Assembly: GCA_003156805.1 (NCBI GenBank)
Contig: PMHV01000071.1
Location: forward strand, 1-45,640
Reading direction: 5' to 3'
Origin: Acidobacteriaceae bacterium
GTDB lineage: Bacteria; Acidobacteriota; Terriglobia; Terriglobales; Acidobacteriaceae
DNA: 45,640 nucleotides
The notes below the pieces were generated by a model, which was not told the DNA's origin, did not search any database, and worked only from the letters and a program-made list of their open reading frames with translations. This document shows positions 1-13,791 of this stretch, in pieces; positions within the stretch are counted from its first letter, which is position 1, and each line of letters opens with the position of its first letter. The position numbers were made by a program, and so were the translations under genes.

Positions 1-1164
1 CGGAAACGGCTGCCGACGCCGGAGGAGGTGGAGGTAGGGCGTGAGTATGAGGGGCCGCGGACGGTGGAAGAAAAGATTCTGTGCGGGATATGGGAAAAGG
101 TTCTGAAGCGGGAGAGGGTGGGGGTGAAGGAAGACTTTTTCGAAGCAGGAGGGCACTCAATGAAGGCAGTCCATCTATCTGTACAAATCGCGAAGAAGTT
201 TGGCAGGGAAATTCCTGTACGTCTTGTTTTCGATAAAACCACAATCGAGAAGCAAGCCGAATTCTTACGGGGAGAGGCTCTGCTTAGTGTCCCCGCATCC
301 CTCGTTCCCATTCGAAGCAACGGCCCGCGCTGTCCACTGTTTTGCGTGCACCCATTCTTTGGCTTGGCGCACTGCTACCGGGAGTTGTCGGATTTGCTTG
401 GGCCGGATCAGCCTTTTTATGGCCTACAGTCACAAGGTTTGGAAGAAGGGCAGCAACCTCTCACCTCGATTCCTGAGATGGCGTCCTTTTATCTCAAAGC
501 TATCCGTTCAGTTCAACCCTTCGGCCCGTATCAGCTTGCAGGTTGGTCAATGGGCGCCCTCATTGCCTATGAGATCGCGCAGCAGCTGCTGGCAGTCGGG
601 GAAACGACGTCGTTCCTCGGTTTGCTGGAAGGGCGGCCTCGTTTGAATGCCATCCTTTCCCCTGAAGTCTCGCCGCCAGCAGAAGGTCAGTTCCCCGTGT
701 CACGGGAAACGCGCGAGAAACTGGTTGATATCAGCACGAGTGACGTTGGGATCTCAGAAAACGAGTCGATCAGAACGATGCGTGAGGCTGGCATCAACCC
801 ATATTTCCTGGACGGAGAAGAAACTCATCCAGTGCCCGTACCCTTGTCAGCGAACCAACTCCGTCGACTCATGGCCGTCGTTACACTGAACCTGCGCGCA
901 ATCGGGACTTACATGATGAAACCCTATGCCGGAAGAGTATGCCTTTTTCGAGTTCCTGTTTCAGATCACGAAGATGAAAGCTATGGCTGGTCACAACTGG
1001 CATTAGGCGGCATTCAAATCAACGAAATCAGCGGCACACATGAAACGTTTCTGGCGGCGCCCTCTGTGAACATGATAGCCACGCAGTTGAATCGCTATTT
1101 AGCGTCCGGTCAGCCTGATTCACGTTCCGAAGAAACTGCACATGCCGATTTAACCATGCCCTGA
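1..1164 (+). CDS. C-terminal end of a nonribosomal peptide synthetase (A-domain end, PCP, thioesterase); 5' end outside window
   Basis: The frame is open from base 1 and begins with RKRLPTPE, which resembles the last residues of an NRPS adenylation domain (A10 region). A peptidyl carrier domain follows, with DFFEAGGHS; Ser53 of the visible protein (bases 157-159) is the expected phosphopantetheine attachment site. From about residue 100 a type I thioesterase is visible, with the nucleophile motif GWSMG (Ser183, bases 547-549) and a C-terminal GTHE histidine (bases 1039-1041). By family knowledge this terminal PCP-TE hydrolyses or cyclises the finished peptide. No condensation or epimerisation domain lies between PCP and TE, so this is the end of the last module. 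A GTG at 28 is in frame but is not a credible start, because the homology runs through it to the window edge. The product cannot be predicted because the adenylation pocket lies upstream. Confidence 0.9.
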   Translation, partial: RKRLPTPEEVEVGREYEGPRTVEEKILCGIWEKVLKRERVGVKEDFFEAGGHSMKAVHLSVQIAKKFGREIPVRLVFDKTTIEKQAEFLRGEALLSVPASLVPIRSNGPRCPLFCVHPFFGLAHCYRELSDLLGPDQPFYGLQSQGLEEGQQPLTSIPEMASFYLKAIRSVQPFGPYQLAGWSMGALIAYEIAQQLLAVGETTSFLGLLEGRPRLNAILSPEVSPPAEGQFPVSRETREKLVDISTSDVGISENESIRTMREAGINPYFLDGEETHPVPVPLSANQLRRLMAVVTLNLRAIGTYMMKPYAGRVCLFRVPVSDHEDESYGWSQLALGGIQINEISGTHETFLAAPSVNMIATQLNRYLASGQPDSRSEETAHADLTMP

Positions 1165-1394: not shown

Positions 1395-2327
1395 ATGGAA
1401 GTCATTGGCAATCAGCGTGCGTCCCTTGGTCAGGATATTCATGATTTACTCCTTCGAACAGGGAAGGGCCAAAGCATCGGCCAGTTCGGTGAAATATTCC
1501 AGGGACAAATAGAAGACCAATTCCAGAGGTTAAGGCGGTGCCTGGTGAGCCTGCCTTGTAGCTCGATCTATTCCCGAGCCACCTTTGCACCGATAAAGTA
1601 TGCCCGCCTCAGAGTCAGGCCGGCCCACAAGCAAAAAGCTCTCAAAGTTACACAACTTGTCCTTGCCCGCTTGAATGCCGCCAGAATCGGCGGAACCATA
1701 ACCATCGAATCGACGGTACCGGAAGCCAAAGGCTGCGGCAGTTCGACAGCCGACTGCATTGCGGCGGCAATTGCGGCCGCAGACGCAGTTGGCCAGCAAC
1801 TGAGCGAAGAAGAGATGGGATCGCTGGTGGTAGAGGGTGAAGTCGCGAGTGATAACTTTATGTTCCAGCGCGCAGTGCTGTTTGCGCACCGTGAAGGCAT
1901 CGTTTTGGAAGATTATGCGCGCAATTTGCCAAAACTTGAAGTGCTGGGATTTGATACGGCGCAAGATGCAATTGTGGAGACTCTGAAACACCCGCCAGCG
2001 GCATACTCATGGCGGCAGCATCAGTCATTTTGCACCCTGTCAGTGGCCCTGCGCCGGGCGATTTGGGAGGACGACGTCGGCCTGCTGGGCCGGGTGGCCA
2101 CAGCGAGCGCGTTCATCAATCAACTATTCTTGCCGAAACCGATGTTCAGTGAGATTCACAGCATGGCAGAGCGTTCCGCTGCCCTCGGCATAGCTGTTGC
2201 CCATTCAGGCACCGTCATGAGTATTCTGCTGGACCCCACGGATCGCCGGCTAGAAAACAAAGTCGAAGAAATTAAAGCAAATCTTCTGAACCTTGGGATT
2301 TCAAACGTGCTGCATTTTCAAACTTAA
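1395..2327 (+). CDS. GHMP kinase, PduX-like (L-threonine kinase family)
   Basis: A 310-residue GHMP-superfamily small-molecule kinase. The N-terminal motif SIGQFGEIFQG (about residues 27-37) matches the start of PduX/threonine-kinase proteins, and the phosphate loop AKGCGSSTADC (111-121) matches the GHMP motif-2 consensus as found in PduX. Known family members phosphorylate the side-chain hydroxyl of L-threonine using ATP, normally for the cobalamin aminopropanol linker. No cobalamin gene is visible here. The gene lies 230 bp after the NRPS and 25 bp before a PLP beta-substitution-type enzyme. I therefore infer that it activates Thr or another beta-hydroxy amino acid as an O-phosphate for peptide precursor synthesis. 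The ATG at 1395 has a weak purine-rich site (cggag) just upstream. Substrate identity is not shown by the sequence. Confidence 0.8.
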   Translation: MEVIGNQRASLGQDIHDLLLRTGKGQSIGQFGEIFQGQIEDQFQRLRRCLVSLPCSSIYSRATFAPIKYARLRVRPAHKQKALKVTQLVLARLNAARIGGTITIESTVPEAKGCGSSTADCIAAAIAAADAVGQQLSEEEMGSLVVEGEVASDNFMFQRAVLFAHREGIVLEDYARNLPKLEVLGFDTAQDAIVETLKHPPAAYSWRQHQSFCTLSVALRRAIWEDDVGLLGRVATASAFINQLFLPKPMFSEIHSMAERSAALGIAVAHSGTVMSILLDPTDRRLENKVEEIKANLLNLGISNVLHFQT

Positions 2328-2352
2328 ATACTTGTTATCACTGAAGGAAAAC

Positions 2353-3384
2353 ATGACTGCGCAAGATGTGACCGTTCTCGATTCTTACAAGCCGAAGCTG
2401 GTGAAAGTTGAGGACAATTTAACGGCTGCGGCATTTCGATTTATGAAGATCTTTCCAGCAGCGTTTTGCCTGCGCCGTGTTCAGGAGGAAGGCTGGACCG
2501 AGACGCAGCCTCTCATTATGCAAACCTCGTCATGCAACATGGCGTTGGGGGCGGCTATGATCTGCAATTTACATGGCTTTCCTCTCACAATAATCAGCGA
2601 TTCTGTCTGCGGCGACCTGTTACGCATACGGCTGGAGGGTTTGAACGCAACTCTGATCACTCTTGCTGAGCCGGGCGTCGGATCGGAATGCCAAAAGACT
2701 CGAATCGATCAAATCGAGGAGGTCCGCGCAAGAATACCCAATCACTGGTGGGTAAACCTGTCTGACCATCCCGGCAATCCGGGTGCGTACGGCTTTTTCG
2801 CAGCGCAATTGATTGAGGAGCTGGGACAAATTGACTATTTAGTTGGTGCAGTTGGTTCGGGAGGGTCTGTCTGCGGCACCGCTGGTTTTCTGCGTGAATT
2901 ATTTCCTGAAATGCTGGCTGTAGGTGTAGATACTTTTGGGAGTGTGCTGTTTGGACAGCCGCGGCAGACCAGAAGACTGCGTGGTATCGGCAGTGCGGTC
3001 TTGCCGCAGAATCTGGACCATTCCCTTTTTGACGAGGTTCATTGGGTAACGGCCGCTGAAGCATACAAAGCGACGCGGAGACTTTATCAAAAGACATTTC
3101 TATTCTGCGGCGAAACCAGCGGTGCGGCATGGCTGGTCGCGAGTTATCTGGCAAGAAAGAACAGTAAGGCCCGCGTAGTCTGTATCCTTCCGGACGATGG
3201 GGAGCTTTATCGAGGTACTGTCTACAATGATCAATATCTCAGGCGGGAAAATCTCTGGCTGGCGCATCTGCCGGAAGCCCCGCGCGAGGTTGCTTTTCCG
3301 GCTGACGCCGGCCCCGGCTGGTCTTTTATGCATTGGGGAAGGCGCGAATACGCAGAAGTGATTCGGTGCGAGAACCCTTTGTGA
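2353..3384 (+). CDS. PLP-dependent fold-type II enzyme, cysteine synthase/SbnA-like
   Basis: A 343-residue protein of the tryptophan-synthase-beta/cysteine-synthase fold. Lys32 aligns by spacing with the PLP Schiff-base lysine of cysteine synthases (K to the helix-end G is 15 residues in both). The substrate loop is SSCNMALG (59-66) instead of TSGNTG, the phosphate-binding glycine loop is GAVGSGGSVCG (165-175), and the C-terminal GETSGA (253-258) matches the usual GxSSGA. Family members exchange a leaving group on the beta-carbon of Ser or O-phosphoserine for S or N nucleophiles; SbnA uses O-phosphoserine with glutamate. Next to the kinase, an O-phospho amino acid is the likely substrate (inference). 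The sequence around Lys32 (FRFMK) differs from the common SVKDR, so substrate binding may differ. The start is set by the ATG at 2353 with AAGGA upstream; an in-frame TTG at 2293 would overlap the kinase. Confidence 0.82.
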   Translation: MTAQDVTVLDSYKPKLVKVEDNLTAAAFRFMKIFPAAFCLRRVQEEGWTETQPLIMQTSSCNMALGAAMICNLHGFPLTIISDSVCGDLLRIRLEGLNATLITLAEPGVGSECQKTRIDQIEEVRARIPNHWWVNLSDHPGNPGAYGFFAAQLIEELGQIDYLVGAVGSGGSVCGTAGFLRELFPEMLAVGVDTFGSVLFGQPRQTRRLRGIGSAVLPQNLDHSLFDEVHWVTAAEAYKATRRLYQKTFLFCGETSGAAWLVASYLARKNSKARVVCILPDDGELYRGTVYNDQYLRRENLWLAHLPEAPREVAFPADAGPGWSFMHWGRREYAEVIRCENPL

Positions 3385-3386
3385 AT

Positions 3387-4613
3387 ATGAGCAACCCGTG
3401 GCTAGTTTTTGTTGAAAGCAATACCAGCGGTACAGGCCGACTTTTCGCGAAAATAGCTTCGGACTGCGGATACCGTCCCGTGCTGCTGGCGGAGCGGCCT
3501 GAACGGTACCCTTATCTGAAGGCGGATTCTGTTCAGTATCTGAAGTGTGACAGCAGTTCTTCTGAGTCCCTGTATAACGCCATGCAAGGCCTTTCTCAGG
3601 AAGCGCCGGTCGCGGGCGTGTTCTCCAGCTCAGAATATTTCATTGAAATGGCTGCGACACTGGCGGAGCTCTGCGGCTTATCGGGCGCTGATCCAGTCGC
3701 GTTACGCACATGCCGCAATAAGTGGCTGCAACGGCAGCGATTGCAAGCTGCCGGTTTCAATACTCCAAAATTCGAATGTGTGACCTCTTGTGAGAAGGCA
3801 GGGGAGGCCCTGCGGCATATTCCTTTGCCGGTGATTGTCAAGCCGACGATGGGCACGGGGAGTGTTGGTGTAAGGCTGTGCAGAACGACCAATGAGGTTA
3901 TGGATCATGCTGCTGTTCTTCTGAATCGAACTGTGAATGAAAGAGGAATGCCCATACTTCCAGAGGTACTGATTGAAGAGTATGTAGTCGGGCTGGAGTA
4001 TTCTGTAGAAGTATTTGGCGGAGTCGCAGTCGGGATCACGAAAAAGCACGTGTCGGCAGAGCCCTTTTTTGTGGAACTGGGGCACGATTTTCCTGCGCCT
4101 CTCTCAGGCGCTCTCCGGGAAAGCATCGGCACAGTGGTTCACGACGCCGTTCGATCCCTGGGGTTGATGTGGGGGCCTGCCCACGTGGAGCTGCGTCTTG
4201 CGGCAGAAGGACCGACAATTATCGAAATCAACCCGCGTCTTGCAGGCGGCTTCATTCCCGAGATCGTACGGATCGCTTGTGGAATCGATCTGGTAAAAGA
4301 GACAGTCAGGCTGGTGGCGGGTGAAGATCCAAGGATTGTCCCGGACCCTAAGGCCCATGCATCAATTCGCTTTGTTGAAGTACCGGGAGCCGGAACCATC
4401 AAAGGAATCGAAGGGGTCGGGGAAGCCGTTGCAATCGAGGGCGTCGTTGACGCCCAAATCTATAAGAATGTGGGCGACTGGGTGCAGAGAGAGAATGACT
4501 TCCGCGACCGGATCGGACACGTCATCGCCTCTACTGATTCAGAAGTTCAGGCCGCGGCCCTGGCTGAGCTAGCATGCAGCAGAATCCGCGTTCAGTTGCG
4601 CCATGATGAATGA
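3387..4613 (+). CDS. ATP-grasp carboxylate-amine ligase
   Basis: About 408 residues. The N-terminus (WLVFVESNTSGTG, residues 5-17) is typical of stand-alone ATP-grasp ligases in peptide antibiotic clusters. The ATP-grasp core shows PVIVKPTMGTGSVG (148-161, nucleotide-binding Lys152 and glycine loop), a LIEEYVVGLEYSVEV strand (195-209) and the Mg-binding signature EINPR at 280-284. The family activates a carboxylate as an acyl phosphate and couples it to an amine, giving an amide or dipeptide. In this unit it probably joins the unusual amino acid to a partner (inference). The previous gene stops at 3382-3384, so ATG 3387 follows almost directly and translation is probably coupled. GTG 3381 overlaps that stop and TTG 3333 lies further upstream; both are less likely. 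Substrates are unknown. Confidence 0.85.
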   Translation: MSNPWLVFVESNTSGTGRLFAKIASDCGYRPVLLAERPERYPYLKADSVQYLKCDSSSSESLYNAMQGLSQEAPVAGVFSSSEYFIEMAATLAELCGLSGADPVALRTCRNKWLQRQRLQAAGFNTPKFECVTSCEKAGEALRHIPLPVIVKPTMGTGSVGVRLCRTTNEVMDHAAVLLNRTVNERGMPILPEVLIEEYVVGLEYSVEVFGGVAVGITKKHVSAEPFFVELGHDFPAPLSGALRESIGTVVHDAVRSLGLMWGPAHVELRLAAEGPTIIEINPRLAGGFIPEIVRIACGIDLVKETVRLVAGEDPRIVPDPKAHASIRFVEVPGAGTIKGIEGVGEAVAIEGVVDAQIYKNVGDWVQRENDFRDRIGHVIASTDSEVQAAALAELACSRIRVQLRHDE

Positions 4614-4657
4614 ATTTTGGAGCACTGTTGTTTCACGAAGACCGGGAGAAACCACAG

Positions 4658-5737
4658 ATGATCGAGCTTCGTAGCGACACTTTTACAATGCCGACTCCGG
4701 AAATGCTTGCAGCCATTGTCAGAGCGCCTCTCGGAAACGATGGATACAGGGAAGATCCGACGGTGCGTGAATTGGAAGAACTGGCGGCAGCAAGAATGGG
4801 CAAAGAAGCGGCCTGTTTGATGCCCAGCGGTACGATGGCAAATCTAGCCTCAATGATGGCCCACTGCATCTGTGACAAGAATGTAGTGCTGCTGGGTGAC
4901 AAGTCCGACATACACATCTATGAGTCAGGCGGGGCAGATCTATGTCCTGGCATTGTATTTTCTGCGCTGGATACCCAGGCCGATGGTACGATTCGCATCG
5001 GCGATCTGGAGCGTGAATTCCAGAAGTGGAGGGACGGTTCCTCTTCGAAAATTGCCCTGCTGTGTCTTGAAAATCCACATAATCTTTGTGGTGGAGTCGT
5101 CCTGCCGAGGGGCTATGTTCGGGCGGTGGCGGATTTTGTCCATTCCAGAGGCGTTAAGTTATATCTGGATGGGGCCAGAATCTTTAACGCCGCCATTGCG
5201 TCGAAGACCGACGTTGCAGAGATAGTTAAGGACGTTGATTCACTCCAGTTTTGCCTCTCGAAAGGTCTTGCTGCTCCGGTTGGGTCCGTGGTCGTCGGAG
5301 AATCACAATTTGTCGGGAGAGTTCGTAAGAGCCGCAAGATCTTAGGAGGAAACATGCGTCAGGCGGGTATTATTGCCGCTGCGGGGATCGTCGCCCTGCA
5401 GCGAATGGTTGATCGATTAGAAGAGGATCATATCAATGCCTGCCGCTTGGCGGAGGGCATTTCCGCGATGCCGGGTGTTCAGGTGGATCTTAGTACGGTT
5501 CAGACAAATACGGTCGTGTTCCGTGTTGTGGATGAGCGCTTTAGTTGCGAAAGTTTTATCGCATCTGCCCGCCGCTATGGGCTGAATCTTAGTGAATTTA
5601 GATATGGAAGAATTCGAGCGGTTGTCCATCATGGCACGGATGCGGAACAGATTCAGGAGGCTTTGCGAATTACCGCGCAGGTGCTTGAGGAAGGGCCGGT
5701 TGAAGAAGCATCCTATTGTGCTGAGAGCCATGCCTGA
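4658..5737 (+). CDS. Threonine-aldolase-like PLP enzyme (low-specificity L-TA / GntG-like)
   Basis: 359 residues from ATG 4658, which has GGGAGA about 8 bp upstream and gives the family-standard start MIELRSDTFT. ATG 4610 overlaps the ATP-grasp stop as ATGA and would add 16 residues without family similarity; it may only serve coupling. A fold-type I beta-eliminating lyase: His86 (HIYESGG), Asp171 (YLDGARIFNAA) and the PLP lysine Lys202 (LSKGLAAPVGS) are all in place. Family members split L-threonine or L-allo-threonine and related beta-hydroxy amino acids into glycine and an aldehyde, or run in reverse. Being last in the four-gene unit, it may make the beta-hydroxy amino acid that the kinase phosphorylates, or adjust its stereochemistry (inference). 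Key residues appear intact, so I expect an active enzyme. Confidence 0.87.
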   Translation: MIELRSDTFTMPTPEMLAAIVRAPLGNDGYREDPTVRELEELAAARMGKEAACLMPSGTMANLASMMAHCICDKNVVLLGDKSDIHIYESGGADLCPGIVFSALDTQADGTIRIGDLEREFQKWRDGSSSKIALLCLENPHNLCGGVVLPRGYVRAVADFVHSRGVKLYLDGARIFNAAIASKTDVAEIVKDVDSLQFCLSKGLAAPVGSVVVGESQFVGRVRKSRKILGGNMRQAGIIAAAGIVALQRMVDRLEEDHINACRLAEGISAMPGVQVDLSTVQTNTVVFRVVDERFSCESFIASARRYGLNLSEFRYGRIRAVVHHGTDAEQIQEALRITAQVLEEGPVEEASYCAESHA

Positions 5738-5871: not shown

Positions 5872-8319
5872 ATGCACGTGCTTATCCAAGATATTCGCTA
5901 CGCGCTTCGAATGATGCGTAAGACTCCCGGCTTGACAATCGTAATTGTGCTTTCTCTGGCGATTGGAATCGGGGCAAACACCGCTGTGTTCAGCGTAACC
6001 AATGCGCTGCTGCTGCGGCCCTTGCATTATCCTCAGCCAAACAGGCTGGCGATTCTATGGCTCCGTTCGCCAGGTGTCGGTATTTCGCAGGATTGGCCCT
6101 CCCCAGGGGAGTACATGGATATAAAGAGCCAGAACCATGTCTTTGAGGAGACGTCGATTGCGATCGGATCGCGCTTCAATTTAACCCGGCTTGCGCAGCC
6201 GGAGCGAATCGAGGGGTTGCGCGCTTCCTCCAGCTTGCTTCATATGATGGGAGCACAGCCCTTGATGGGGCGGATTTTCCTGCCTGAAGAGGACGCCCCG
6301 GGCAAACCGGCCACCTGCGTACTCAGCTATGGTCTGTGGACACGGGTATTCGGGGCCGATAAGCAAATTCTTGGCCGGAGTCTCACGCTGAATGGGCAGC
6401 AGTATGAAGTGGTAGGCGTATTGCGGCCGGATTTTGTATTAAACAACGAAGTGATTCCCACTGTCGCCGGAATTGATAAGGTGGAAATTTTAGTGCCGTT
6501 GCCCATGGGAGCCGATGCCGCCCAGGACCGCAGAAACGAAAACTTCAATGTTCTGGCCCGATTGAAACCGGATGTCACTCTTAGGCAGGCACAGTCAGAC
6601 ATCGATATAATTGCCCAACATATCAAAGACGCAGATAAACGGGATCCTACCTTCACAATCAGCGTAGTGCCCCTCCTCGATCAGGTGGTTGGCAAAGCTC
6701 GACGCATCGTGCTAGTACTGCTGGGTTCGGTGACCCTCGTCCTTCTGATTGCTTGCGCGAATGTGGCTAATTTATTGCTCACTCGCCTGCCCAGGCGCCA
6801 GAAAGAAGTGGCCCTTTGCAGCGCCCTGGGCGCTAACCGTGCGCGAATCTGGCGGCAGTTGCTGACTGAGAGCGTCCTGTTCGGATTGCTGGGCGGAGCG
6901 GCGGGTCTGCTCATCGCAAGTGGCGGGCTTTTTTTCGTGCGGGCGATCAATCCGGGCAATATTCCCAGATTGGACGAAGTAAGGCTTGATGCGAGTATGC
7001 TGATCGTCACCTTCGGCCTTTCCATCGTTACAGGAGTTTTTTTTGGCATGGTGCCGGCCTTCCGATTGTCGCGCGTTGATTTGACTTCGGTTCTCAATGC
7101 AGGCAGCCGGGGTTCTTATGTTGACGGTGGGCTGGAAACGAAGCGCTACGGCATCCGCTCTCTGCTGGTAATTGCTGAATTTGCGTTTTCCCTTATGCTG
7201 CTGATCGGCGCTGGTCTGTTGGTCAGAAGCTTTATACGGCTGGCGATGGTATCTCCGGGATTCAATCCTGAAAACGTTATCTCCATCCGTGTGTCAGCAG
7301 GGGCGCGATATGTGGACTCTCATGCCTTGGTGCAGTTTTATGAGAATGTAGGCGAACGCATCAGCCGGCTGCCCGGCGTGCAGGCCCAGGGAGCGGTTTC
7401 GGCGCTGCCCTTTACGTCTTCTGTCGGATGGGGATCTATGGCGGTGGAAGGCTATACGCCTCCCCCGAACGAACCAGAGGTGCAGGCAGACCAGCGCATG
7501 GCGACGCCGGATTATTTCCGGACGATGGGAATTCCTCTGATAAGAGGCAGGTTCTTCACTGAAAACGATGCCTTAGGTACTCCGCCTGTTGCGCTGATAG
7601 ACGAAAAGGTAGCGCAGCGTTTCTGGCCGAATGGGAACCCGATCGGCAAGCATCTGCGGCCCGGCGGTCCCACCGATCCGTGGATCACCATCGTCGGCGT
7701 CGTGGGAGCCGTGAAGCAATATGGCCTCGAATCGGAGAGTCGCATGGGCGTGTACTATCCTCACAAACAGTACCCGATTAATAGCATGTATATCGTGGCT
7801 CGTTCTACAACTGACCTCTCAAGCATGGCGAGCACCATTGTGCGTGATATTCACAATCTCGATCCCGACGTTCCCTTGTATGATATCGGTACCATGCAGG
7901 AGCGGCTCTACAGCTCGACGGCCCGGCAGCGGTTCTCAGCCGCAATATTAGGCGCTTTTGCCGGTTTTGCCTTCATTCTTGCACTAATCGGAGTTTATGG
8001 CGTTCTGTCACATCTGGTTGCACAGGGCACGCGCGATATCGGTGTTCGCCTTGCGCTGGGCGCACAGAAACGTGACATTCTCCGTCTGGTGATGCGTCAG
8101 GGAATCGGCATGGCATTGATTGGCATCATCGGAGGGATTCTTGGTGCGGTAGCTTTGACGCGTGTCATGCAAAACCTTCTATTTGGGATTGGTGCAATGG
8201 ATGCCCCGACATTTTCAGCGACCACACTGCTTTTGTTCATTGCCGCCCTGTTGGCTTGCTATATACCGGCGCGCCGGGCAATGAAACTGGATCCTTTGAT
8301 CGCATTACGGTACGAATAA
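5872..8319 (+). CDS. ADOP-type ABC permease (duplicated FtsX/MacB-like permease without ATPase)
   Basis: 815 residues starting MHVLIQDIRYALRMMRKTPG, the standard opening of the acidobacterial duplicated orphan permeases. The N-terminal transmembrane segment (about 20-42) is followed by a large periplasmic MacB-like domain. Two FtsX blocks are visible, each with three membrane helices: one around 275-400 (LLIACANVANLLLTRLPRR) and one around 690-815 (ALIGVYGVLSHLVAQGTRDIG). A second periplasmic domain lies between them. No Walker motifs are present and no ATPase gene is adjacent. ATG 5872 has GAGAG upstream. Family members are thought to work with a separate MacB-like ATPase in export or envelope remodelling; the substrate is unknown. 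Its place inside the peptide cluster suggests a link to product export or self-protection, but ADOP genes are very numerous in Acidobacteriota and may be bystanders. Confidence 0.88.
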   Translation: MHVLIQDIRYALRMMRKTPGLTIVIVLSLAIGIGANTAVFSVTNALLLRPLHYPQPNRLAILWLRSPGVGISQDWPSPGEYMDIKSQNHVFEETSIAIGSRFNLTRLAQPERIEGLRASSSLLHMMGAQPLMGRIFLPEEDAPGKPATCVLSYGLWTRVFGADKQILGRSLTLNGQQYEVVGVLRPDFVLNNEVIPTVAGIDKVEILVPLPMGADAAQDRRNENFNVLARLKPDVTLRQAQSDIDIIAQHIKDADKRDPTFTISVVPLLDQVVGKARRIVLVLLGSVTLVLLIACANVANLLLTRLPRRQKEVALCSALGANRARIWRQLLTESVLFGLLGGAAGLLIASGGLFFVRAINPGNIPRLDEVRLDASMLIVTFGLSIVTGVFFGMVPAFRLSRVDLTSVLNAGSRGSYVDGGLETKRYGIRSLLVIAEFAFSLMLLIGAGLLVRSFIRLAMVSPGFNPENVISIRVSAGARYVDSHALVQFYENVGERISRLPGVQAQGAVSALPFTSSVGWGSMAVEGYTPPPNEPEVQADQRMATPDYFRTMGIPLIRGRFFTENDALGTPPVALIDEKVAQRFWPNGNPIGKHLRPGGPTDPWITIVGVVGAVKQYGLESESRMGVYYPHKQYPINSMYIVARSTTDLSSMASTIVRDIHNLDPDVPLYDIGTMQERLYSSTARQRFSAAILGAFAGFAFILALIGVYGVLSHLVAQGTRDIGVRLALGAQKRDILRLVMRQGIGMALIGIIGGILGAVALTRVMQNLLFGIGAMDAPTFSATTLLLFIAALLACYIPARRAMKLDPLIALRYE

Positions 8320-8925: not shown

Positions 8926-9150
8926 CGGGGCACAGCGGGTGTCGTCGTCGGCCGGGAAATTCTATTCGATGATGTTACGCCCGAGTGGAGCCAGTTTTGC
9001 ACGGAGAGTGTCGCCTTCTATCCGGAAGAATTCGGCGCAACGAAATCGTTCCTGCGGACCGCATGCGGAGAAGCCCAACTAGCTGGGTCAACCAAACATA
9101 CTGCCCAACATCTAATAGCCATTCGTCTGTATTTGCCAAACGGGTCGAAT
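8926..9150 (+). pseudogene. Second remnant of the unrecognised domain, in frame with the racemase
   Basis: After an in-frame TAG at 8923 the frame is open up to and through the racemase gene. It encodes GREILFDDVTPEWSQFC and then SVAFYPEEFG, which aligns with DEDIVLNNATTEWIAFC and KLQFEVP at the end of the 8401-8784 frame. It lacks a start codon with a ribosome site, so it is probably a decayed partial copy of the same domain rather than an N-terminal extension of the racemase. The 470 bp between 8785 and the racemase start hold nothing else I recognise. Confidence 0.4.
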
Positions 9151-9252
9151 AGAATCCAAAGCTCGTGCCCGATGGTGTGCTCTCTATTGAAAAGAGCTCG
9201 CTGTTTCTTTCTGGGTGCTCTCAGCCGGAGCGATAGAGACGAGGAGAAGCCG

Positions 9253-10053
9253 ATGAGTAAAGCAGTAGAGCAGGAGAAAACCGACCATGGAAGTAGTGAA
9301 GTGTGGGGTGTCCTGGGAGGGATGGGGCCGCTCGCGTCCGCGGAGTTCATGAAGAGCATTTATGAGCAGAACACCGGCGGCAAAGAGCAGAATTCCCCGA
9401 TCGTTTTCCTGTTGTCGGATCCTTCGATCCCCGATCGAACAGAAAGCCTGCACAATGGCACAGACAAAATTCTTCTTGCTCGTTTGTCCTCTGGGATCAG
9501 CCAGTTGATCTCGGCTGGCGCTACCAAAATTGTCATGTGTTGTGTCACGGCCCACTATTTGATGTCGCAGTTGCCCGCGCCCATGCGGGCAAAAATTGTA
9601 TCGCTTGTGGATTTGATCTTCGCCGCTATTCTTCAAGGCGGTGAGAAGAGCTTGCTTTTGTGCACTGAAGGGGCGAGAGCGGTGGGAATCTTCCAGACCC
9701 ATGAAGCTTGGTGCGATGCTCAAAATTTCGTGGTTCTTCCGGACAGGCAGGATCAGGCCTCCGTTCATCAACTGATTTATGAAATCAAGAGCAACCATAC
9801 GGGTGACCGGCAACTCCGGTTCATCCAATCGCTAATGCGGAAATATGGGGTGAGTTCTTATACAGCAGGATGCACGGAACTGCACATTCTGGCCAGGGAA
9901 CAGGCGCGGGTTACTGGTCGCAAAGCGTGTGAGTTCTGTGTCGATCCACTGGCTATAGTTGCAGCGATGATGTCACACGCTGCGCCCTATCCCGAGTTAG
10001 CTCGCGCCTCCATTTCCTCTTCAGGTCTAAATCGCGCAGTGTCCTCGTTCTGA
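9253..10053 (+). CDS. Aspartate/glutamate racemase family protein
   Basis: 266 residues from ATG 9253, chosen because GAGGAG lies 6 bp upstream and the conserved N-terminus WGVLGGMGPLAS begins at residue 18. The Asp/Glu racemase fold has two catalytic cysteines: Cys97 in CCVTAH (the family usually has PCNTAH, so the Asn is replaced by Val98) and Cys207 in AGCTEL. The family interconverts L- and D-Asp, L- and D-Glu or related acids without a cofactor. It lies between the biosynthetic unit and the exporter, so it probably supplies a D-acidic amino acid for the peptide (inference). The changed first-cysteine motif may shift substrate preference. Confidence 0.85.
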   Translation: MSKAVEQEKTDHGSSEVWGVLGGMGPLASAEFMKSIYEQNTGGKEQNSPIVFLLSDPSIPDRTESLHNGTDKILLARLSSGISQLISAGATKIVMCCVTAHYLMSQLPAPMRAKIVSLVDLIFAAILQGGEKSLLLCTEGARAVGIFQTHEAWCDAQNFVVLPDRQDQASVHQLIYEIKSNHTGDRQLRFIQSLMRKYGVSSYTAGCTELHILAREQARVTGRKACEFCVDPLAIVAAMMSHAAPYPELARASISSSGLNRAVSSF

Positions 10054-10082: not shown

Positions 10083-11747
10083 ATGAATCTCATCAAGTTT
10101 CTTCTGCGAAATTCTCCTCGACTGATGGTCTGGAGCCTGGTTGCTGGGATTGTCAGCGGCGTCAGCAACTCCATCCTGCTTGCTATTATCAGTTCAGTCC
10201 TGAAACTTAACGGAGCTGCCAGCCGTGTCTTGCTTTCAGGATTTATCGGACTGTGCATTGTGCTTCCGGCGTCAAGATATGTCTCCGAACTCCTCTTGAG
10301 CAGGTTAGGCCAGGGCGCTCTATACAGCCTGCGCATGGAACTGAGTCGCCAGATACTTGCCGCGCCCCTGCGTCACTTGGAACAGCTCGGGACCGCGCGG
10401 CTCATGGCTGCCCTGACTGACGATGTGCCCACCGTCGCCGGAGCAATCATGACCATTCCGTTACTTTGGGTGAGCGCCACCGTCGTCATCGGCTGCCTGG
10501 TTTATATGGGGATCATGTCACCGGCGTTGCTGGCGATTGTGCTGGTATTCATTGTGGTGGGCGTCATTGGCTATCAGTTTCCAATGCTGAGAGCGCAGGG
10601 TCTTTTCAGAAAGGCTCGTCAGGACGCTGAAGCATTGCTGGAACATTTCCGGGCCATCACACAAGGTACAAAGGAACTCAAGATTCATAGTGACCGCCGC
10701 CGCACATTCCTGCGGGACGTGCTTAGCGCGACCGCCACCTCGCTGAGGCGTCACAACATCTGCGGGATGAAGATCCACACGGTTGCCACGAGCTGGGGAC
10801 AGACCCTGGTTTTTGCCGTGATTGGATTGATCGTCTTCGCCCTTCCGTCTTTGATGCATGTGAATGGCCTGATGCTGACGGGATACACGTTGGCGCTCTT
10901 GTACATGATGTCCCCACTGCAGGTCATCATGAACTCGCTTCCGATGCTCTCACGTGCCAATGTTGCCCTCAGCCGAGTCCATGAGCTGGGGTTTTCATTG
11001 ACCAGCAAAGAAGCAGAAGAAACATCCTGCGTGCAGGCGCCTGTAAGAGATTGGCAAGCGCTGGAGTTCATTTCAGTTACCCACTCATATCGCGGTGAAG
11101 ATGAAAATTACATCTTTACCCTGGGGCCGATTTCAACTACCTTTCACGCTGGAGAACTGGTATTCATTACCGGCGGTAACGGCAGCGGCAAGACGACGTT
11201 GGTCAAATTGCTTTGCGGACTCTATGCTCCTGGGAAAGGGGAAATATGCCTCGATGGGCAGCCTGTCAGCAGCCAGATGGAGAGGGAATCTTACCGGCAG
11301 AATTTTGCGGTGGTATTCTCCGATTGTTTTCTGTTTGAGCGCATGTTTGGACTGTTTGATCCAAAGCTGGATGAACGGGCGTTAGAGTGTCTGGCAAAAT
11401 TGGAACTGGCCGACAAAGTACAGATAAAAGACGGCCGGTTGTCGACCCTGAATTTGTCGCAAGGGCAGCGAAAACGGCTTGCCCTTTTGACCGCTTTCCT
11501 CGAAGACCGCCCGATCTATTTGTTTGATGAATGGGCTGCCGACCAGGACCCACACTTCAAAGCAATATTTTATTTGCAGTTGCTGCCGCAGCTCCGGGCT
11601 AGAAACAAAACAGTCTTTGTAATTACCCATGATGACCGGTATTACACTTGTGCGGATAGACTCATCAAGCTCGATGCGGGAGAGATCGTAAGCGATACGA
11701 GAAGAGTTCCACAGAACCATGAGAATGTGATGATGACGCAGCTCTGA
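10083..11747 (+). CDS. Cyclic peptide export ABC transporter, SyrD/PvdE-like (fused permease-ATPase)
   Basis: 554 residues: six predicted membrane helices in residues 1-310, then one nucleotide-binding domain. Walker A is GGNGSGKTT (364-372), the signature is LSQGQRKRLALL (458-469, LSxGQ as in SyrD/PvdE rather than LSGGQ), and Walker B is IYLFDEWAADQDP (478-490). The EWAADQDP ending is characteristic of the cyclic peptide exporters that carry pyoverdine precursors or syringomycin across the inner membrane. It probably works as a homodimer exporting the NRPS product or its precursor to the periplasm. It starts 30 bp after the racemase, so the two are likely cotranscribed. Confidence 0.92.
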   Translation: MNLIKFLLRNSPRLMVWSLVAGIVSGVSNSILLAIISSVLKLNGAASRVLLSGFIGLCIVLPASRYVSELLLSRLGQGALYSLRMELSRQILAAPLRHLEQLGTARLMAALTDDVPTVAGAIMTIPLLWVSATVVIGCLVYMGIMSPALLAIVLVFIVVGVIGYQFPMLRAQGLFRKARQDAEALLEHFRAITQGTKELKIHSDRRRTFLRDVLSATATSLRRHNICGMKIHTVATSWGQTLVFAVIGLIVFALPSLMHVNGLMLTGYTLALLYMMSPLQVIMNSLPMLSRANVALSRVHELGFSLTSKEAEETSCVQAPVRDWQALEFISVTHSYRGEDENYIFTLGPISTTFHAGELVFITGGNGSGKTTLVKLLCGLYAPGKGEICLDGQPVSSQMERESYRQNFAVVFSDCFLFERMFGLFDPKLDERALECLAKLELADKVQIKDGRLSTLNLSQGQRKRLALLTAFLEDRPIYLFDEWAADQDPHFKAIFYLQLLPQLRARNKTVFVITHDDRYYTCADRLIKLDAGEIVSDTRRVPQNHENVMMTQL

Positions 11748-12115: not shown

Positions 12116-12150
12116 ACCAATCATTCTGAACTAGAGCAGGAGACACAGTG

Positions 12151-13791
12151 ATGAATCATGAAAGTTTTTATCTCCGTCAGAACATTCAACTTGAACCTCT
12201 GATCGATCATTGGTATGCCTGGCCTCATCTCATTCCGCCTGCAACGGCTGCGCGCAATATCACCGAGCGGCACCTAAAGATCATGGACTCCTACATCAGC
12301 AGTCCGCAAATTCATGCGAATGCCGTAAAGAACCCTAAAATGCTGGGCGGTCCTTTTATTGATTACGGTGGCAAGCGTGTGGATGAGATTCGGGTACTGC
12401 GCGACGGCATCAAGAAAGAGCGTGCCCATCTGCTGGGGTTATCGGCGGCGCTGGCCGCGCTGGATGCGATGTTGCGGGAAGGCGCCAAAGGACATTCTCT
12501 CCAGTCTCTTTATCCGAAAGTGCCTGAGATTTTGCGGGGCTACGTTGAACTGGCTTACGACCTGAACAATCATCCGTCATTTCGGCTGGTGGAACCGCTG
12601 CTCTACCGGAGCAAGTATTTTGATCGATCGCAGCAGAGCTTATTTCTATCGGTCATCCAGAATGATGCTCGTCCTTTTGTCTTGAGCACGCCCCGGCTTG
12701 AATCCGATGACACGCTGCACCTGCGGCGGACGTTCGACGATGAGGCTGTTGACCGCCTGTTCCGGCTCAAAACTGAACCGCAACCCTGGCATGTAATCAA
12801 AGAAACATTGCAAGTGGGCGACGCGTACGATAGCTTGGTCCGGTCTTTCCTTACCACAGAACCTCCCCCGCCCTATGTGCCTTACACAGGACTAGGAGTG
12901 CGGTGGCGATACTTCGGCCACGCCTGCATTCTCATTGAATCCAATGGGATGTCGATGCTCTTCGATCCGGTATTGAGCTACACGTATGAAAACGATATTT
13001 CGCGCTATACCTATCTCGATCTGCCGGATAAGATTGATTATGTGCTGATTACACATAATCATCAGGACCACGTGCTGTTTGAGACACTCCTGCAGATCCG
13101 GCATAAGGTGAAGAACATTGTTGTTCCGCGCAATGGGGGCGGGCATCTTCAAGACCCCTCGCTCAGATTGCTTCTGGAAAATTGCGGGTTCCGAAATGTA
13201 ATTGAGATCTCAGAAATGGACGAGATTCGCGACAGCAAAGTACGCATCACCGGCCTGCCTTTCTTCGGCGAGCATGCGGACCTGGACATCCAGAGCAAAC
13301 TGGCCTGGTTGGTGAAGATCGGGCCGAACACGCTCCTGTTTGCGGCCGATTCCTGCAACATTGAACCCCGGCTCTATGAGCACATCCACCGTGAAATCGG
13401 GGACGTGGATGCGTTGTTTCTCGGCATGGAGTGTGATGGCGCGCCTCTGAGCTGGCTTTACGGGCCACTGCTCACGCAACGCGTGGAGCGTTCCATGGAC
13501 GAATCGCGGCGCCTGGCTGGTTCCAACTGCGAACAGGGCAGGAGCATCGTGGATCTGTTCCACTGTCGGGAAGTCTACGTATACGCCATGGGCCAGGAAC
13601 CATGGCTGAATTACATTATGAGTATCAAGTACACCGCAGAGTCCCGTCCTATTATTGAATCAGACCGGCTGATCCAAGCATGTCAGGAGCAAGGCATCAT
13701 TGCAGAAAGGCTATTTGGAGAGAAGGAGATTCTGTTGGAAGAATCCGGTGATTATAGTTCCACAGTAACGCCAGCTGTGGCCCATTCCTAG
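12151..13791 (+). CDS. MBL-fold metallo-hydrolase of a peptide cluster
   Basis: 546 residues from ATG 12151, with AGGAGA 7 bp upstream (GTG 12148 is too close to that site). The first 250 residues are helical and not recognisable. The metallo-beta-lactamase fold begins near WRYFGHACILIESNGMSMLF. Metal ligands are visible: THNHQDH at 301-307 (H302, H304, D306, H307), a GEH histidine at 375 and D400 in FAADSC. The C-terminus contains the REVYVYAMGQE motif that is repeated in the broken copy at 8401. The fold covers hydrolases, oxygenases and lactonases, so the reaction is open; a tailoring or hydrolytic role in peptide biosynthesis is inference. It has its own ribosome site and follows the IS remnant, so it may have its own promoter. 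Confidence 0.8.
   Translation: MNHESFYLRQNIQLEPLIDHWYAWPHLIPPATAARNITERHLKIMDSYISSPQIHANAVKNPKMLGGPFIDYGGKRVDEIRVLRDGIKKERAHLLGLSAALAALDAMLREGAKGHSLQSLYPKVPEILRGYVELAYDLNNHPSFRLVEPLLYRSKYFDRSQQSLFLSVIQNDARPFVLSTPRLESDDTLHLRRTFDDEAVDRLFRLKTEPQPWHVIKETLQVGDAYDSLVRSFLTTEPPPPYVPYTGLGVRWRYFGHACILIESNGMSMLFDPVLSYTYENDISRYTYLDLPDKIDYVLITHNHQDHVLFETLLQIRHKVKNIVVPRNGGGHLQDPSLRLLLENCGFRNVIEISEMDEIRDSKVRITGLPFFGEHADLDIQSKLAWLVKIGPNTLLFAADSCNIEPRLYEHIHREIGDVDALFLGMECDGAPLSWLYGPLLTQRVERSMDESRRLAGSNCEQGRSIVDLFHCREVYVYAMGQEPWLNYIMSIKYTAESRPIIESDRLIQACQEQGIIAERLFGEKEILLEESGDYSSTVTPAVAHS

Follow-up and report, generated by a model that had tools for sequence, protein, structure and literature searches.

The stretch of DNA analysed here (the window) comprises positions 1 to 45,640 of contig PMHV01000071.1 in the assembly of an Acidobacteriaceae bacterium (GCA_003156805.1). 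It begins at base 1 of this contig (G000:C5, called C5 below), where a nonribosomal peptide synthetase (NRPS) is truncated, and four genes follow the C-terminal end of that NRPS, encoding a GHMP-family kinase, an SbnA-like pyridoxal 5'-phosphate (PLP) enzyme, an ATP-grasp ligase and a GntG-family PLP aldolase (Table 1). All four open reading frames are intact and have Pfam matches, and the NRPS ends (at 1164) 230 bp upstream of the kinase, which bears out the first-pass annotation in placing a real four-gene unit right behind the NRPS end. The tight junctions it described stand for the kinase and PLP enzyme (a 25-bp gap) and for the PLP enzyme and ATP-grasp (2 bp), but the overlap at the last junction (4 bp) holds only for an aldolase start at ATG 4610; with ATG 4658 there is a 44-bp gap. 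Since ATG 4658 is preceded by GGGAG and better fits the start of the family match, which sets in at residue 16-17 when the long form is used, it is likely the true start. We propose, with a probability of roughly 0.7, that the four genes belong to a cassette making a 2,3-diamino acid precursor, most likely 2,3-diaminobutyrate (DABA), for the adjoining NRPS.

Table 1. Features of the window (contig C5) and of a second contig, C52, of the same genome
Feature	Position	Strand	Matches
NRPS C-terminal end (end of adenylation domain, carrier protein, thioesterase)	1..1164	+	PF00550 E 2.6e-13; PF00975 E 1.2e-29
GHMP-family kinase, proposed L-threonine/allo-threonine kinase	1395..2327	+	PF00288 E 1.1e-10
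SbnA-like fold-type-II PLP enzyme	2353..3384	+	PF00291 PALP E 8.3e-31; TIGR03945 172 bits
ATP-grasp ligase, L-amino-acid-ligase type	3387..4613	+	PF13535 ATP-grasp_4 E 3.7e-20; PF18603 LAL_C2 E 3.2e-19
GntG-family PLP aldolase, L-allo-threonine-aldolase-like	4610..5737 (or from 4658)	+	PF01212 E 8.3e-85; NF041359 381.5 bits
ADOP-family duplicated permease	5872-8319		TIGR03434, 924 bits
Asp/Glu-racemase-family protein	9133..10053	+	PF01177 E 2e-19; TIGR00035 99 bits (cut-off 93)
Cyclic-peptide export ABC transporter	10083..11747	+	TIGR01194 499 bits (cut-off 286)
CmlA-type diiron beta-hydroxylase	12148..13791	+	PF18456 306 bits
Argininosuccinate-lyase-superfamily lyase (ASL)	L004:11328-12818 (contig C52)		
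Second (standard) SbnA-like PLP enzyme	L004:15707-16783 (contig C52)		

Support comes from other genomes. When 84,980 species genomes were scanned with an ATP-grasp alignment, 232 relatives emerged, and we analysed the loci of the best 80 with family profiles, each drawing on 2 to 7 sequences; a partner gene was counted if it was no more than 6 kb away and had the same orientation. A PLP enzyme and a lyase of the argininosuccinate lyase superfamily accompany the ATP-grasp gene in 78 of the 80 loci and a kinase in 68; all four occur together in 67, an aldolase is present in 17, and 13 loci share the order kinase, PLP enzyme, ATP-grasp, lyase, aldolase (K-P-A-ASL-G). An NRPS domain lies within the locus in 51 cases, and Actinomycetota, Pseudomonadota, Cyanobacteriota, Planctomycetota and Acidobacteriota are all represented. 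Applied to 51 control stretches (374 kb, for the most part taken from these genomes), the profiles for kinase, PLP enzyme, lyase and aldolase gave no match and that for the ATP-grasp a single weak one. Co-occurrence had been set beforehand as the test on which the proposal could fall, and kinase, PLP enzyme, ATP-grasp and lyase do recur together; a kinase followed by SbnA-like beta-substitution to a 2,3-diamino acid, as first suggested, is the best reading of the unit. The distance matrices of the four families are correlated as well (r 0.90-0.94 over 70 loci), which shared species history could explain; the correlations for the genes of the present genome are lower (0.09-0.73).

Six plasmid neighbourhoods were inspected. 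On a plasmid of Streptomyces sp. NBC_01707 (NZ_CP109191, locus L014), an NRPS, kinase, PLP enzyme, ATP-grasp, lyase and GntG aldolase follow one another in that order, so that the cassette stands, as in the window, directly after an NRPS and includes the same kind of aldolase; it differs in that the lyase gene is in place, ahead of the aldolase gene, that the stretch inspected shows a single PLP gene, and that an MFS transporter comes next. Streptomyces sp. ITFR-16 has this order minus the aldolase, and in Azospirillum ramasamyi the four genes are accompanied by a DMT transporter, the stretch having no annotated NRPS. The remaining three neighbourhoods (L013, L015 and L017) contain a kinase and a PLP enzyme only; because such pairs occur without ATP-grasp or lyase, a kinase and PLP enzyme alone are no proof of the pathway. 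In two of these pairs, L013:10894-12543 (Mesorhizobium) and L017:9256-10881 (Paraburkholderia), the PLP enzyme carries a GNAT acetyltransferase domain as a C-terminal fusion.

The lyase that recurs in these loci was missed when the four genes were first taken as a complete set: in the present genome it is kept on contig C52. This lyase and the window ATP-grasp match the two halves of a single 890-position model, NF002563, which describes the fusion protein PRK02186, the ATP-grasp over positions 5-398 (372.6 bits) and the lyase over positions 412-884 (427.4 bits); the cut-off of 625 for the fusion protein is not reached by either of the two separate genes, each of which covers one half. The C52 lyase falls just below the ArgH cut-off (TIGR00838, 276.8 versus 279.5 bits) and is unchanged at all 53 positions that at least 95% of 81 relatives share. 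The alignment of the lyase profile covers almost the whole (7-496) of 6g3d/6rx8, entries listed as argininosuccinate lyase which we take to be EDDS lyase, an enzyme acting on N-succinyl amines; when the C52 protein is compared by itself, ordinary argininosuccinate lyases outscore these entries (188 versus 160 bits). Because the genome has a separate lyase on contig C43, only 30% identical and presumably the housekeeping enzyme, the C52 lyase looks dedicated to the cassette.

C52 also carries a second copy of the PLP enzyme, found by searching the same genome and 52% identical to the window copy. Of the 63 positions shared by at least 95% of 81 cassette PLP enzymes, 15 are altered in the window copy and one in the C52 copy. 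According to the available part of PMC12414870, Arg132 and Tyr152 of SbnA select O-phosphoserine and Gln151 contacts the carboxylate; alignments and motif blocks place equivalents of all three residues in the C52 copy and in the family, whereas the window copy is without those of Gln151 and Tyr152. Its changes include Gly61 to Cys, Thr62 to Asn, Gln136 to Leu, Tyr137 to Ser and Asn139 to His (protein numbering), and it keeps the PLP lysine, the glycine-rich loop, the Arg132 equivalent and an intact frame. The two copies are sisters in the tree (support 100/97) with branch lengths of 1.02 (window) and 0.47 (C52), the window copy being flagged as a long branch of unsure placement. SbnA is the best solved relative of both (104 bits for the window copy, 139 bits for the C52 copy), and the window copy fails the SbnA model (cut-off 349.95). 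Given its near-standard residues, and the loss of the substrate-binding Gln and Tyr from the other copy, the C52 copy is probably the working enzyme, and the PLP gene of the window, first placed at the centre of the chemistry, is a diverged paralogue that may take a different substrate, play an assisting role or be failing. What the window copy has kept would suit a division of labour in which the C52 copy makes the diamino acid and the window copy, having lost Gln136, Tyr137 and Gly61, makes a second unusual residue; since the same changes are equally well those of a weakened or regulatory protein, we consider two products possible but unlikely. Among 200 genomes of the class, this one alone has matches to the PLP enzyme at E 1e-40 or better, and matches to the kinase at E 1e-10 occur in 2 of 396 genomes of the phylum, a scarcity among relatives that would fit acquisition.

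Compared with 71 kinases from related cassettes, the window kinase shows 31-48% identity and differs at one of the 30 positions that 95% or more of these kinases share. Its solved relatives are only distant (mevalonate kinases, the best, and homoserine kinases), and its best NCBIfam models, homoserine and mevalonate kinase, are matched far below cut-off (39.4 versus 168 bits), which gives no footing to the label 'PduX-like' attached to it at first, PduX itself having been outside the comparison. The aldolase is 44-54% identical to 18 cassette aldolases; it passes the GntG-family model (cut-off 230), and its best solved relative is the L-allo-threonine aldolase 2fm1 (265 bits). Elsewhere in the phylum, a distantly related kinase gene (150 bits) lies on a 3071-bp contig of genome G364, with a lyase gene (374 bits) behind it that is cut by the contig end (L009:263-3071).

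A cluster of known type offers a parallel. We searched 35 cassette genomes for PF00351, the phenylalanine-hydroxylase type that serves as a marker of uridyl peptide clusters, and found it in five; one of the five places (G568 C73, locus L114) has the cassette, and the other four show none within the stretches read. L114 lies in the Streptomyces wedmorensis genome and was reached through another of its loci, L057, where a kinase and an ATP-grasp gene are adjacent (L057:8935-11248) with no PLP enzyme or lyase in the locus, the complete, distantly related set being in L114. There a lyase, a kinase, an 813-residue PLP/ATP-grasp fusion and a GntG aldolase stand in a row, accompanied by a flavin adenine dinucleotide-binding oxidase, a biopterin-dependent aromatic hydroxylase, separate condensation and adenylation-thiolation-thioesterase proteins, and a 121-residue match to Pac13 (5NJN, 217 bits over 120 residues), which would mark L114 as a uridyl peptide antibiotic cluster. 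Such antibiotics are built around DABA, as stated in the accessible parts of PMC10643210 and PMC4858918, and mureidomycin requires a gene proposed for its DABA residue, according to an extract of PMC4572928. The pathway was first put forward as a candidate undescribed one; the same functions (lyase, GHMP kinase, SbnA-like PLP enzyme, ATP-grasp and GntG aldolase beside an NRPS) occur in this Pac13-marked cluster, whose type includes pacidamycin, napsamycin and mureidomycin and whose products contain DABA. The arrangement differs in that the PLP enzyme and ATP-grasp are one protein in L114 and separate here, where the PLP gene is duplicated and the lyase is on another contig, and the proteins are only distantly related (about 41% identity for the window ATP-grasp).

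Two further systems bear comparison. SbnA, which joins O-phosphoserine and glutamate on the 2,3-diaminopropionate route to staphyloferrin B, belongs to the same fold family as the two PLP copies; the cassette differs in that its PLP enzyme scores below the SbnA family cut-off and has a lyase as partner in place of SbnB, the partner of SbnA in that route. In the lipopeptide cluster of friulimicin/amphomycin, dabA-C form a kinase/PLP/lyase-type set for DABA, which we take as a lead only. Searches of the open-licence literature, a scope that leaves the subscription papers on friulimicin and pacidamycin outside and novelty unproven, returned no description of kinase, PLP enzyme, ATP-grasp and lyase as one pathway. 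Two candidates from that literature, an ATP-grasp enzyme of beta-lactone peptides and KasC of kasichelin, were set aside as having no bearing on the cassette, judging by the parts of PMC11427300 and PMC12305651 available. The window most likely holds part of a DABA-type cassette that is split between contigs and has a duplicated and altered PLP enzyme; this kind of pathway is known and the set is not new.

In the route we propose, the aldolase would supply or adjust L-(allo-)threonine and the GHMP kinase would convert threonine to O-phospho-threonine. The SbnA-like PLP enzyme, mainly the C52 copy, would then replace the phosphate with the amine of L-aspartate, and the C52 lyase would remove fumarate to leave the diamino acid; aspartate is the likely donor because the lyase would release fumarate. 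The ATP-grasp enzyme would form a carboxylate-amine bond at some step inside the route. Gene identities, co-occurrence, fusions, kept and lost residues and the occurrence of this set in a Pac13-marked cluster are direct observations, and from them we infer the substrates, the products, the aspartate donor and the unity of C52 and C5. A different product, 2,3-diaminopropionate or another 2,3-diamino acid made from some other beta-hydroxy amino acid (serine, for example, or an aldolase product), would agree with the O-phosphoserine specificity of SbnA, the closest solved PLP enzyme, and with the 12 of 80 loci that lack a kinase, where O-phosphoserine could come from primary metabolism. The window set, however, has a kinase, required for threonine but not for serine, as well as a relative of threonine aldolase, and the Pac13 parallel indicates DABA, so that we regard such a product as quite improbable. 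Six of the kinase-less loci (L074, L075, L077, L082, L083 and L094, all Streptomyces) have the PLP enzyme, lyase and ATP-grasp with a stand-alone adenylation-domain protein bearing the code DIWQSTADD, and these may use O-phosphoserine.

The main gap in the DABA route is the ATP-grasp enzyme, which a simple version of that route does not need and which is conserved yet unexplained. Its best solved relative is the L-amino acid ligase 3vot, and with 3 deviations at 59 conserved positions it should be active, as the conserved residues are kept. Across the 80 loci it is fused to the PLP enzyme in eight and to the lyase in seven, which suggests a step inside the pathway and makes the initial view, that it ligates the finished product, a guess. 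A scheme we hold to be doubtful, at about the same level as the diaminopropionate product, would have the ATP-grasp enzyme mask the amino acid or its aspartate adduct as an amide, so that part of the chemistry runs on a carboxylate-masked compound which the lyase frees; the window PLP enzyme would have lost its carboxylate-holding residues (Gln136, Tyr137 and the Gly61/Thr62 loop) in favour of a masked or NRPS-carrier-bound substrate, and the aldolase would set the threo/erythro configuration through L-allo-threonine. The fusion to the lyase, also seen in PRK02186, and the lack of another place for the ATP-grasp in a simple DABA route would suit a PurC/PurB-like pair, in which a carboxylate is coupled to aspartate by the ATP-grasp enzyme and left as a carboxamide once the lyase has taken off fumarate, the kinase and PLP enzyme making another compound. 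The near-constant company of PLP enzyme and lyase and the fusion of ATP-grasp to PLP enzyme tie all the enzymes to one product, however, and the Pac13 parallel requires DABA; we therefore judge a separate pair very unlikely. Ordinary cysteine or threonine metabolism that came to lie beside an NRPS by chance, to which matches of the PLP enzyme to cysteine synthase models (108-111 bits) might point, can be set aside almost entirely, as these matches are far below the cut-offs (344-351 bits) and the cassette recurs as a unit, frequently with an NRPS domain.

On the preferred reading, a DABA-type cassette, the genes would be split between two contigs, the lyase and the standard PLP enzyme on C52 and the kinase, ATP-grasp, aldolase and diverged PLP enzyme on C5. 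Kinase and ATP-grasp are indeed on C5, the lyase is on C52, a PLP gene is on each, an NRPS is present, and the cassette parts of both contigs flank cut NRPS ends. Near its PLP copy, C52 carries the lyase, a TauD-family dioxygenase, a fatty-acyl-AMP ligase and an NRPS frame open to the contig end; an open frame between the lyase and the TauD-type gene (L004:12886-13767, minus strand) looks by eye like a transposase remnant and has no Pfam match. Condensation domains occur at 11 places on contigs C52, C26, C4, C13 and C17. C52 stops and C5 starts within an NRPS, C26 (3720 bp) and C4 (3658 bp) contain NRPS frames open from end to end, and the condensation domains of C13 and C17 are well inside their contigs. 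C52 and C4 end in the same 23 bp, and the first 106 bp or so of C26 and C4 agree to 84%, as would be expected if the assembly broke at repeated modules. C52, C4, C26 and C5 are likely one cluster.

Adenylation-domain codes, taken from alignment columns, read DAWTIAAVC, DASTVAAVC, DLTKVGHVG and DIWEINTDD on C52, DLTKVGHVG on C4 and DARHLALMV on C26. We take the first three C52 codes to be Phe, Tyr and Asp-like and the C4 code to be Asp-like. The acidic residues of the fourth C52 code, DIWEINTDD, could bind a second amine. The class to which it belongs, D-x-W-[E/Q]-x-x-x-D-D, is found on C52 and in 14 of the 80 related loci, and the adenylation-thiolation-thioesterase protein of L114 has DIWQGTADD. 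The second and third adenylation domains of C52 (L005) have methyltransferase inserts, of Methyltransf_25 and FkbM type (PF05050) respectively, and by eye the adenylation domain of C4 (L008) has a similar one.

Several observations weigh against a DABA cassette of the kind proposed. The code class was counted in 15 of 103 adenylation domains near cassettes and in 1 of 33 controls (Fisher p 0.12), related loci being counted apart, several of the 14 being near-identical Streptomyces and some of the 33 controls not being NRPS domains; we rejected the code as proof of a diamino acid, the enrichment not being significant, and treat it as a hint only. The comparison of contig ends found no exact overlap of at least 15 bases linking C52 to C5 or ordering the pieces. 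The DABA of uridyl peptides is said, in the portion of PMC10714638 at hand, to derive from threonine and ammonia and not from aspartate. The L114 proteins lie in a deep, distant clade (branch of 1.52 to the fusion clade in the PLP tree), so that their substrate could differ. Gausemycin offers a mixed parallel: it contains 2,3-Dab, and an excerpt of PMC12471526, the source for this, places cysteine synthase and lyase genes in the B188M101 cluster and not in the INA-Ac-5812 cluster. Finally, besides the 12 loci in which the kinase is absent, L057 and L070 are without a PLP enzyme and lyase nearby.

If the proposal is right, an ATP-grasp, an SbnA-like PLP enzyme and a lyase, usually with a GHMP kinase and sometimes with an aldolase, would form a countable gene signature by which probable 2,3-diamino acid clusters could be recognised. 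Within it ATP-grasp and lyase are equally constant, which a simple three-enzyme scheme leaves unexplained, and the natural pair of PLP enzymes, one with standard and one with altered substrate residues, offers a handle on what the ATP-grasp step needs.

Further along the window, the racemase-family protein, the exporter and the CmlA-type hydroxylase are likely part of the same biosynthetic cluster. Its product looks like an acidic cyclic lipopeptide because of the fatty-acyl-AMP ligase, the Asp/Glu racemase relative, the two kinds of hydroxylase and the cyclic-peptide exporter, and the prediction for this genome would be a lipopeptide with a diamino acid residue. The permease that follows the aldolase belongs to the ADOP family, which is typical of Acidobacteriota.

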